Origin: Salminus brasiliensis
Taxonomy: Eukaryota; Chordata; Actinopteri; Characiformes; Bryconidae
Reading direction: 5' to 3'
DNA length: 64,000 bases
Assembly: GCF_030463535.1 (NCBI RefSeq)
Contig: NC_132892.1
Location: 33,870,109-33,934,108 of the forward strand
Both the position numbers and the translations under genes were made by a program. This document shows positions 15,602 to 62,800 of this stretch, piece by piece. The notes beneath the pieces were generated by a model. The model was given only the letters and a program-made list of their open reading frames with translations. It did not search any database and was not told the DNA's origin. Numbering within the stretch: position 1 is the stretch's first letter; every line of letters begins with the position of its first letter.

Positions 15602-18600
15602 ATGCTTTCAGGTGGTGAGTACACGGGTCACTGTTCAGAAACACAGACTGCAATAACTACCTTCTTGTTCCCTTTCGAAACTCTCTTCCTGTTTTACTGC
15701 AGCTGGATCTCCACCCGTATGACTGTGTATAAGCCACTGTAAGGTCATTTCAAAGGGTTTTAGAATAAAATGCAGTTTGAAATGGTTTACAGGAAGCGTG
15801 GCTGGTCAGCCCTTGCTTTCTGATTATATGGTGTGGTGTTGGGGTCTGTAGTGCTTCGTGTTTGTGCAGACTTGTCAGTGAATGTTTACATTTCTATGTC
15901 CTGTACAGTTATTTATTGCAGTGCTAAAGCAGGCGCTGCTACAAAGCTGCTACACTCGAGATTGTGTTTTCGTAACATGCTTTATTGTGTTTTAATGGTA
16001 ACTCAGTTAGAGAAGGTTAGCTTGGTTAGCTTAAGTGTGTATAAGTGAGCATGTGTGTAAGTATTCAAACTCAGACTCAAAAGTGATTGGACAAACTAAA
16101 ATAATGATCATTTATTGAGGTCAATGACTGCCTGAAGTCTCAATCTCATGGGCATCACCAAATGAGTTCCCCCCCTTCATATGCTTTGCTGCTTTCAGCT
16201 GCTGTTTGTTAGTTGTTCTTTCTGTTTCAGTTTCTTCAGTAAAAGAAAACCAGCTCAGTTGGGTTGAGGTCAGGTGACTAAAGCTTTTCAGAGACTTTTC
16301 TCAAGACTGTTCTTGACTTGATTAGAGAGAGAAGAGAAGAATCCTGCGATCATCATATTGTCTTTTATGGCCTATGTTTTTATTTTATTTTACTGGGTGT
16401 TACTGGGATCACCAGTGCACTCCTTAAATTTTAATGAATGAACCAGATTGTTGATTTAGCCTTTTTCTAAAGTTTCTGCTCTCTCTGATAGGTTTGTTTT
16501 TTTTCAATGACAACCCCTTTCACTGACACCTTTTTGGACCTTTGTACATTTAAACACTTGGAATTAACTCCTGCTTATCAGTTAGTTGTTCAATTACTAC
16601 TCAGCCTGTGAAAAATGATGAGCCTATGTAAAATATAGCTATAATTACTGAAGAGATATGCAATATTTGTTAAATCCTTCATTAAAAGCTAAAACATATT
16701 TGCCATATCCATATTCATATTCCAATCCACTGAGGTGAAGCACAGATGCAACATTAAAAAATATTTGCCACTGTCCAAATACTTATGGTACCTTACTTTT
16801 AACCAGCTCAGTTTCCTTTTGAGTCCCGTTTCCTCTTCTCGGTTGCTCCTAGGTGGAGTTTCTAACACTGGCACTTTCAGTTTGCTCACTAAAGCTGGAT
16901 TTCTGTTATAGTGCTTTTAATTCAGGTCAGGACTGGGCCACTGTAGGACCATTTTGGCTTTAGAGTCACTCAAATACAGCTTTATCTTTATGCTAGGAAT
17001 CACTGTCCAACCCTGTATACTATAAAAGTACAGCAAAAATTTATATACTCTAGTTCTGGAGCCCAACTGTGCCACACCATTCACTGCTGTACCACTACTA
17101 GCACATTAGTCAAACTCTTGAAGAGGTGCATCAATGTAACAAATTCATGTAACTGTACAGTTTAGGGGCACATTGAGCACTGGAGCCTCTATTAATTCAC
17201 ATCTCTTTCCTCAGTGAGCGAAAGTTGGCCAGAGCTGTTACTAGCTTGTCTGGTGATTGTTCTTTCTATTTTGTTATGGAGAATGAGACACTTGACACGG
17301 ACCAAAGACTCTCAAGTCATTGAAGGTAATGTGGTTTTTCACTTTGCAGAAATTGCCAGGTTAACTTCAGCTTCCATTATGTAAAACGTTTCAAAATAGT
17401 AGAAGCAAACATTCTCATTAATGACACATTCTAATGAAATGGCATAGCCTTGTTTAAAATTCCCACATTGGTAGAAAAATATGTTCTGTGTGGCATTAAA
17501 TCTAATAGAGGATGATGGGATATACTATGCAGCTAACAAATTAACATTCTTACAAACATTTCTATAAAGCTACATTTTGGTTGTGAAAACACTGGTTTGA
17601 AATGATCCCTGTTTAGTGTTCCAACAATTTCACATCCCAGACATTTCCAGTTTTCTTGGTGTTCCTAGAACATTCTTAAGTTAAAAGAACATTTCCTAGT
17701 CTAGCTTAATTTGCACCACAATCACAAATCAAGAATGTTCTCTGAATCCTCAAAATGCCCGATTTATGCTTCTAGATACCAAAACATTTTTTTCTCAAGA
17801 AGAATGTTCCCTAAATCTGAATCCTCAGTCTTATTAACCCAAACAATTTTAATGTTGTCTTGGTATATTTGGAGAGCATACAGTACATAGATCCATTTTA
17901 GTTTCTATAAACAAATTATTATAATGATTATTTTAACATTATTCATTTATTCTTCAATATTTTTAATATCTATCAGTTCTGTTTTGCTCCTCATCCCATG
18001 TTCCAGAACCTTACAGGACAACACCCATTATAGAGAACCGTCCTAATCCAGGTCATCCAGGAGTGTTTCCTCCTTCAGTGAAGGCGAATCCAAGCCCGAC
18101 CCCTGTCGTTTCTTCTGATAGTTGGTCTGTAGTTGTGAGTGCTAGTACAGGCAGCACAGTAAATGCTCCTGCATTCAATAGCAACAACTTCCATGGCCCA
18201 TCGGTCTTCAACATCACCACCACTTCCGGTTATGGTATGTCCAAGCTGTAAATATCTCAAAAGTAGCTTGTAAGTGTTAATATTATTCAATATTTTCTTC
18301 AGTTGACACTTGAATAACAAAATAATCCTCAACACATGATATTTTTAGGATCTACAGGAGCAGAACCAGAAGAGATACATTCAGGTACTGCACTCACCTT
18401 CCTCCTGGTGGCTGTAATGTAGCACCATTGTAAGGAGGCTAAACTGTGCCCTCCACATGGCTGGATTAGGACTTCTTATTAAATCTACATTTGTCCATAA
18501 ATTGAGTCCATAAATAAAGAGTGTATTATTATGTATTGTGTAAATGATTATTTACTGCTTTTCTGTCATACCAAGCAGATGATTCAATCCTAAAGAAATT

Positions 18601-59884: not shown

Positions 59885-62800
59885 ATGGAGTTTGTGTTTG
59901 AACTGCTGGCTGCTCTGCTGATCGTTCTGTCCACCTGGTTCCTAAGTATGACCTTTCAAACCCGGCTCATTGCAGGTAATATTGTTTATGAGCTACTTTG
60001 CTACAGCATGCCAGTTTTATCAACCTATTACTGCATATTTTAACAGTGAGTTCTTACTATTTTGAGGACACCCTATGACAATCTTTGTCTTTTTTTATAT
60101 ATTTAAACATCTGGATGTTATAAGAGATGGAGGAAATATGTGAGGAAAACCTTTGCACACCCTATGCTCTGATAGTTGGTATGTCTCCCCTTGGATGAAA
60201 TAATTTACCAGGCTCTGACATCAACTGGGAGAGAGTGTTTCCCACTCCTCCATGCAGAAATCTTTCAGCTGTGGGACGTTTCAGCTTTAGCTTTTAGACA
60301 GATGGCCTCCCATATCCCTCAAGCTCCCTCTGAGACAGTAAAGAAGTCCTAGGTGATTCTATATGTTGGAGAGATCTCCAGGCCCTACTGCAGGAAAGCA
60401 GCTTCAAACCATAACATGTCCACCTCCATGCTAAACAGCAGAGTTCTTGTGCTCGAATGCTGTGTCTGGTTTACCCCATATGTGTCTCTGTGTCCAAATA
60501 ATTCAGCTTTCGATTAATCTGGCCAAAGCACATTCTTCCAGATGTCCTGGTCTTGTTCTAGGTCTTCTCTTGCTTTGAGGTTCGAATGTCCAGATGTTTA
60601 AATACACTAAAAATACTAAGTATTAATAAAATTAACTTCTGCTGCCTTTTGGATGCTACCACAGCCCAGACTCCATCCATCCAGTCCACCATCGTAGCCC
60701 AGACTCCATCCATCCAATCCACCGCCACAGATGAGACTCCCTGGGTTCAGTCCTCCACCACAGCCCAGACTCCATCCATCCAGTCCACCGCCACAGCCCA
60801 GACACCATCCATCCAGTCCACCGCCACAGCCCAGACTCCATCCATCCAGTCCACCGCCACAGCCCAGACTCCATCCATCCAGTCCACCGCCACAGCCCAG
60901 ACTCCATCCATCCAGTCCTCCGCCACAGCCCAGACTCCATCCATCCAGTCCTCCGCCACAGCCCAGACTCCATCCATCCAGTCCACCGCCACAGCCCAGA
61001 CTCCATCCATCCAGTTCACCGCCACAGCCCAGGCTCCATCCATCCAGTTCACCGCCACAGCCCAGGCTCCATCCATCCAGTCCTCCACTATAGCCCAGAC
61101 CCCATCCATCCAGTCCACCGCCACAGCCCAGACCCCATCCATCCAGTCCACCGCCACAGCCCAGACCCCATCCATCCATTCCACCGCCACAGCCCAGACC
61201 CCATCCATCCAGTCCACCGCCACAGCCCAGACCCCATCCATCCATTCCACCGCCACAGCCCAGACTCCATCCATCCAGTCCTCCGCCACAGCCCAGACTC
61301 CATCCATCCAGTCCACCGCCACAGCCCAGACTCCATCCATCCAGTTCACCGCCACAGCCCAGGCTCCATCCATCCAGTCCTCCATCGTAGCCCAGACTCC
61401 ATCCATCCAATCAACCGCCACAGATGAGACTCCCTGGATTCAGTCCTCCACCACAGCCCAGACTCCATCCATCCAGTCCACCGCCACAGCCCAGACCCCA
61501 TCCATCCAGTCCACCGTTACAGCCCAGACTCCATCCATCCAATCAACCGCCACAGATGAGACTCCCTGGATTCAGTCCTCCACCACAGCCCAGACTCCAT
61601 CCATCCAGTCAACCATTACAGCTCAGACTGGAGGAAGCATCAATGCTCCTGCACTGCACCACAATGTCATACATGGCCCTGTCAGTATTGAAATTTGCTC
61701 AAAACACAAAGATGATTGTAAGTATGACTTTATCATTAAATGTTTTCTGTTAATAATAAACAATTTATTAACATGATAAAGATCTATTATTACCAGAAGA
61801 AATAAATATATCATTATTATTTTTTTTTTTAAAGATTATCCAGATGGAAGAAAACATTCTAATGGTAATGACAACGTTTTCACTCTATAAATGCTAATCC
61901 ACTATTACCTGGATAACAATGATAACCTTAACCTCACCCTTAAATTAACCCTAAATCCTAATCCTAAACTTGACCAAAATCTCAGGGTTAAGATTAGGTT
62001 TAGGGATTATATTCATCTTACAGTTCAGTTGCATTTAATTGAATATTAACTGAATGAGGTGAGGATCTACGAGGCATCCTAGTAAGGTGATACCACTATT
62101 TTCACAATCTCCTGAGTGGTGCAACTGTCTAACTGCCTCATGCTAACCCTTACCCTTCCAGCTTGGTGGCAATGTGTGACGAGGCAGAGACTTAGCAAGT
62201 AAAATTAGCTTGGAGAAAATTGGGGGAAAAAAATATGTTAATGCTGCAAAACTGTTATTAGTAATTATCACTGACACACCAAAAAGCACTTCCCGCACAT
62301 TCTTCACCACATAGCAACCATAATGTCTGGATTTTGCTTTTCCACATATTTCCAAACAGCCACAAGTCCTCAATGGATTTCCACTTAACGAACTGTGCGA
62401 CCTCTTACATGGTCTTGTTTTGCCGAGCCTCCTTTAGGTGATCACACAGGATAAACCCATCGAAAATACTTGCTAAACATCGATGTAGGACATACAGTAT
62501 ATGCCTGCCAGCTGTTCTTACTGACTGCTGCTCTGTTTTCTCAGTTTCAGATACGGCCGATTTGCGCCACATCTGTGTGAAGCTCAAGTCTTCTTTCATA
62601 GAGAAATTTGGCATGATCGACAGCACAGCAATAGAAGGAAAGCAGACACCCCTTGAGGACGTTTATACAGAGCTTTACATCACTGAAGGTGAGAGCGATT
62701 TGGTCAACAATGAACATGAAATATGGCAAATCGAGAGAGCGTCTCGAGTACAGGCATCACACGACGCTTCAATCGCCTGCGATGATATCCTCACACCCTC

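Follow-up and report, generated by a model that had tools for sequence, protein, structure and literature searches.

Hydrophobic first coding exons of two Salminus brasiliensis NLR genes as candidate N-terminal membrane anchors

The analysed stretch comprised 64,000 nucleotides of the Salminus brasiliensis contig NC_132892.1 (C15:33870109-33934108 of the 1.07-Gb assembly, hereafter the window), in which three FISNA-NACHT genes, designated NLR A, NLR B and NLR C, were identified using Pfam. FISNA, NACHT, winged helix and HD2 lay on one exon in each gene and scored above the Pfam cut-offs (for NLR C, the window stops within HD2), the single-exon arrangement that marks the fish NLR-C (FISNA-NACHT) family, to which all three belong. 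The first coding exons of NLR B and NLR C encode a hydrophobic segment, for which we put at about an even chance a reading as a type III signal anchor, meaning an N-terminal segment that stays uncleaved, with the N-terminus facing out and the C-terminus in the cytosol, and that would hold FISNA-NACHT on the cytosolic face of a membrane.

All exons below are on the forward strand. NLR B was modelled from a 13-nt exon 1 (15602..15614, phase 0 to 1, encoding MLSG, with A at -3 of its ATG and a donor score of 9.9), followed by the hydrophobic exon (17215..17325, phase 1 to 1, acceptor ctctttcctcag, donor score 6.7), an exon combining a Pro/Ser-rich linker with a motif termed NAP (18007..18234, phase 1 to 1), a short linker exon (18349..18384, phase 1 to 1), and the FISNA-NACHT-winged helix-HD2 exon (18579..20388, 3' end approximate). 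For NLR C, the hydrophobic segment is encoded by the ATG exon itself (59885..59975, phase 0 to 1, MEFVFELLAALLIVLSTWFLSMTFQTRLIA, A at -3, G at +4, donor score 6.4), which an in-frame stop at 59876-59878 precedes, and the model continues through an exon with repeats and the NAP motif (60665..61717, phase 1 to 1), a short linker exon (61835..61864), and the FISNA-NACHT exon (62545..64000, cut by the window end). NLR A served as the comparison gene, its first exon having no hydrophobic segment (7064..7109, MEKEILEETEHDPST, A at -3, G at +4, donor score 9.4), with a NAP motif exon at 7908..8048 and further exons at 8196-8222 and 9012-about 10819. In all three genes, the joins leading from exon 1 into the FISNA-NACHT exon were all in phase 1, with no internal stop; the interval taken for NLR A reaches the end of the open frame, and its last codon is the one stop counted there. 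An earlier annotation made by a model from the letters alone (the sequence-only reading) had proposed these NLR B and NLR C exons, and its coordinates and peptides were found correct on re-reading, with MLSG joined to the hydrophobic exon in NLR B. The phases it had matched between the hydrophobic, NAP and FISNA exons also held, with open joins in the models, as did its contrast, at the level of sequence, between two anchored-looking NLRs and one without the exon.

Hydrophobicity was evaluated by simple sums on a position-independent scale, and both segments gave values comparable to those of four reference anchors (P450 2C, CYP3A4, epoxide hydrolase and TOM20). Among these six sequences, NLR B had the most favourable 15-residue sum (-4.55) and NLR C the most favourable 19-residue sum (-0.08). 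When the joined pieces were scored in the same way (NLR B up to where its NACHT exon ends, NLR C to the window end), the hydrophobic segment was the top-scoring stretch of each. Both genes have an N-terminal core of ~15-20 residues, NLR B being borderline on the 19-residue sum, and net charge is more positive behind the core than before it, at -2 before the 15-residue core of NLR B and +2 in the 15 residues following, and at -2/+1, a weak difference, in NLR C. This charge pattern predicts an outward N-terminus and a cytosolic NACHT, clearly for NLR B and weakly for NLR C. A signal anchor appears to be the best reading for NLR B, which it fits well, and the likeliest for NLR C, and the membrane would probably be that of the endoplasmic reticulum (ER).

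Targeting to the mitochondrial outer membrane, in the manner of TOM20, is quite improbable. The short core and subsequent basic flank of NLR B would suit it, and NLRX1 is a mitochondrial precedent, but the mean hydrophobicity of the 15-residue NLR B core (3.11) is above that of TOM20 (2.15) and near that of P450 2C (3.12), and since a more hydrophobic core favours the ER over mitochondria, the usual rule points to the ER.

The NLR C linker contains a 33-bp array (60659-61629, 29.4 copies) rich in Thr, Ser, Gln and Ala, and a 324-residue stretch behind the hydrophobic segment is 24% Thr, 19% Ser and 9% Pro. Such a composition could suit a mucin-like stalk behind a cleaved signal peptide, with NACHT lumenal or extracellular, and the uncharged hydrophobic run of NLR C with small residues behind it would agree with the signal-peptide cleavage rule (possible cut near LIAA|QTPS, by eye); an extracellular NACHT is also claimed for a sea cucumber NLR (PMC13133943). 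We consider this arrangement unlikely, given that the similar segment of NLR B is flanked by basic residues and shows no cleavable site by eye, and that NACHT is generally held to require cytosolic partners. Many of the 33-bp units contain CCACAG, a possible acceptor, and as a 33-bp unit preserves the frame, splicing or differences between individual fish could change the number of repeats.

Alignment of the NLR B and NLR C segments gave 11 identities in 21 positions, better than shuffled sequences (p 0.003 by full shuffle, p 0.010 when shuffled within the hydrophobic core), in agreement with the earlier statement that the segments align. The 21 aligned codons comprise 5 identical codons, 6 with silent differences, and 10 with amino-acid differences; identity at codon positions 1, 2 and 3 is 15/21, 14/21 and 8/21, third positions carrying 13 of the 26 differences. 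The two segments are probably homologous, and their similarity counts as moderate evidence. The sequence-only reading had argued from conservation against a chance open frame; the similarity stands, with its probable homology, but as an argument from conservation its basis is a pair of divergent, non-orthologous genes within the same genome.

For controls, NACHT places were listed across the genome (99, from 167 first-look candidates); the count is an underestimate, since the list lacks NLR A and NLR C. One of the listed places, L009 (C70:4500-14013, on a 38-kb contig), is 99.7% identical to NLR B over 9.5 kb and probably represents the alternative haplotype or else a duplicate created during assembly. 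Upstream regions of 25 further NACHT genes of the same genome (L010-L028 and L029-L034) were scanned besides the window. Strict criteria admitted phase-1 exons with a donor score of at least 6 and a summed 19-residue insertion energy of at most 2, either initial with a purine at -3 or internal behind a pyrimidine-rich acceptor. Within the 64-kb window (both strands), these criteria matched only the NLR B and NLR C hydrophobic exons. Across the 19 regions L010-L028 (first 8,700 bases of each, read towards the gene; 165.3 kb, both strands), 7 overlapping candidates were found, confined to a single stretch of low complexity in L012, and the 6 further regions (27.3 kb, both strands) yielded zero. 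A looser scan of 254 kb returned 375 candidates, 33 of them hydrophobic. An open frame that is hydrophobic is thus nothing unusual; the rarity lies in finding one ahead of an NLR in good splice and start context. L009, as the copy of NLR B, and L001-L008, which are short NACHT-centred pieces, were left out of the looser and 19-region scans. Among the looser candidates, the NLR B and NLR C exons were each other's best match (score 38; runner-up 33 for NLR B, 28 for NLR C).

That the two exons are chance open frames beside splice-like sites is, on these counts, scarcely credible. The criteria were fixed after both exons had been seen, the looser scan shows how readily hydrophobic frames arise, and L021 provides an example of one leading into a repeat exon, but both window matches sit on the sense strand before NLRs, and a single low-complexity stretch was all that the 25 other regions produced. 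The L021 frame (an ATG frame at 2823-3003; found in the looser scan only) was rejected as probable intron read-through, continuing straight into an exon of VSMKS repeats; this judgement follows from the repeated units there, whose upstream sequence differs. Repeats of the VSMKS type were seen by eye in 12 of the 25 other regions (8/19 and 4/6), and in L021, L022, L017 and L030 they are N-terminal, arranged either as exons duplicated in tandem or as long arrays that keep the frame.

Several observations weigh against a signal anchor. The 19-residue sum of NLR B (1.5) is the least favourable of the six (reference anchors 0.8 to 1.3) and not far from those of soluble NACHT helices, at 3.06 (B) or 2.42 (C), and charged residues confine its core to 15 residues. 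The alignment of the two segments covers few positions, and 10 of its 21 codons change the amino acid, mostly beyond the first ten. A search of the genome with the NLR C segment matched nothing except itself; this search missed NLR B as well, so relatives at that distance are invisible to it. Because the strict limits were set with both exons known, the strict scan is a consistency check and no blind test. Finally, a Met codon lies inside each hydrophobic exon, where the core ends or beyond it (17283 in NLR B, 59948 in NLR C), from which a soluble form could be made using the same exon.

These Met codons would also serve a product in which the hydrophobic exons are minor or unused, the main protein starting from another first exon or from the Met behind the core and being cytosolic like NLR A. 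Alternative starts were listed as phase-1 ATG exons of 10-300 nt with a donor score of at least 5. In 14800-18006 the listing contained exon 1 of NLR B (15602-15614, donor 9.9, the top score there), the internal start at 17283 (6.7), and a shorter exon 1 donor (5.6); in 58700-60664 it contained the main NLR C exon, the internal start at 59948, one at 59988 with weak start context, and two short exons at 60127 (G at -3 and +4), the main exon alone combining A at -3 with G at +4. Neither interval thus held a better upstream start, and no in-frame Met is present in the NLR B NAP exon. Although NLR A, and apparently the related locus L024, begin without a hydrophobic segment, these results and the likeness of the B and C segments make a predominantly cytosolic product unlikely.

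On the signal-anchor reading, the hydrophobic segment would be recognised on leaving the ribosome and inserted into the ER membrane, the short acidic tail passing to the lumen and the basic flank remaining outside. A flexible linker (Pro-rich in NLR B, a long Thr/Ser/Gln repeat in NLR C) would then leave FISNA-NACHT and the NAP motif facing the cytosol, and ligand bound through the C-terminal LRR/B30.2 part would cluster receptors already concentrated at the membrane. From the DNA we infer the use of the hydrophobic exons in mRNA, their insertion, the choice of membrane, the C-terminal part, and the function of NLR B and NLR C. The arrangement resembles the signal anchors of P450 2C and microsomal epoxide hydrolase in its short tail, short hydrophobic core, basic flank, and, for NLR B, Pro-rich linker; no homology is claimed.

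The earlier statement that NLRs are generally cytosolic needs amending, in that membrane-spanning NLRs are published for sea anemones (PMC5094078) and a sea cucumber (PMC13133943). The actiniarian proteins are likewise proposed to be membrane-seated through the N-terminus, but they are cnidarian and have 3-5 N-terminal transmembrane domains, where a fish FISNA-NACHT gene here has one segment. Sea cucumber AjNLRC4 and AjNLR-new share a NACHT with a transmembrane segment and differ in carrying Ig domains and in being reported at the cell membrane. An engineered NLRP3 bearing the P450 2C1 helix (PMC12117088, accessible text) differs in being man-made and in the PYD of NLRP3. No vertebrate membrane-anchored NLR was found in the literature on fish or transmembrane NLRs, a weak negative given that subscription journals were thinly covered; none is described in the available sections of PMC11192531, PMC12436146 and PMC5894186, and membrane terms were not found in those of PMC10648357. 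The fish NLR-C / NLR-B30.2 family (Howe 2016, PMC4852459, as far as its text was accessible) is alike in having FISNA-NACHT in one large exon with other parts on separate exons, in variable repetitive N-termini, and in B30.2 frames downstream, here of NLR A and NLR B; the accessible text does not mention an N-terminal membrane segment such as NLR B and NLR C have, and a further difference is that no death-fold domain was found in the N-terminal pieces scanned here. How membranes contribute to the activation of NLRs is under active study for NLRP3. If the anchor is real, a natural anchored NLR with soluble relatives alongside could be used to test directly whether the trigger depends on placement at a membrane, and membrane NLRs, in print for cnidarians and an echinoderm in the sources available, would extend to vertebrates.

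The NAP motif, GGTVNAPxxxxNxFxGPVxFN, is common to NLR A (7908-8048), NLR B (18007-18234), NLR C (60665-61717), and L024 on C14 (1705-1800, reverse strand), with mutual E values of 1.7e-5 to 0.013; among the 25 other regions it was found in L024 alone. This distribution suggests that the NAP module is probably old. L024 appears to begin at an ATG within its NAP exon, thus without an anchor, and no hydrophobic exon was found upstream of it in the strict scan, so that anchor presence apparently varies, with NLR B and NLR C having one and NLR A and L024 lacking one. A profile of the motif gave nothing convincing against solved structures (1 match, E 1.5), nor did Pfam on the NLR N-termini (one weak match, E 0.38); as a speculation, a signalling motif of beta or amyloid type would be compatible with its pseudo-repeat appearance.

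A tree was built from 25 FISNA-NACHT pieces. L018, whose piece was too short, the repeats of NLR B (L009) and of L023 (L002), any locus lacking the Walker pattern, and L029-L034 were not among them. NLR A, NLR B and NLR C fell on separate long branches, with 8 of 22 inner forks open, and the tree did not establish NLR B and NLR C as sisters. Among at least 103 matches listed for the NLR C FISNA-NACHT exon, the best-scoring other genome match was 51% identical, and shorter ones reached 55%, or 68% across ~45 residues. It is possible, and we propose it tentatively, that vertebrates, or at least this fish, possess a standing class of membrane-anchored FISNA-NACHT receptors, in which the anchor and NAP exons are old modules common to distant NLR groups, acquired or lost through exon shuffling, and matched anchored and soluble receptors coexist.

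The Walker A motifs are GIAGVGKT (NLR A), GIAGIGKT (NLR B) and GIAGIGKS (NLR C); in the Walker motif table of PMC6988351, within the part available, the NLR A and NLR B variants are the group 1 and group 3 motifs, and the NLR C variant is absent. Pfam matched neither PYD nor CARD in the N-terminal pieces scanned, most of the NLR C repeat array lying outside the scan; a death-fold N-terminus is confined to groups 1 and 2 of the family, the other groups being without one. PRY and SPRY were found by Pfam downstream of NLR A and NLR B, the latter as an open frame at 24213..24779 (forward strand) that is presumed to be the last exon of NLR B; NLR C runs beyond the window.

Two GAGGAAGT boxes, which we take to be PU.1-like, occur at 15398 (reverse strand) and 15500 (forward strand), within ~200 bp before the NLR B start, out of five in the whole window. 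An Ig V-set receptor frame (3389-4030, Pfam V-set) with a hydrophobic segment near its end lies upstream of NLR A, C2H2 zinc-finger open frames are located between NLR B and NLR C, and a 60-bp satellite array of ~74 copies occupies 33080-37506. Elsewhere in the genome, a RING finger directly precedes FISNA-NACHT in the same open frame at L020 (C15:2709100-2719099; several RING models above the Pfam cut-off), and the same order was seen by eye in L014, L018, L021, L022, and partly L017; such an NLR may be a ubiquitin ligase. At L034 (C11:11239700-11244300), Pfam placed a CARD in an open frame adjoining one of the listed NACHT places.

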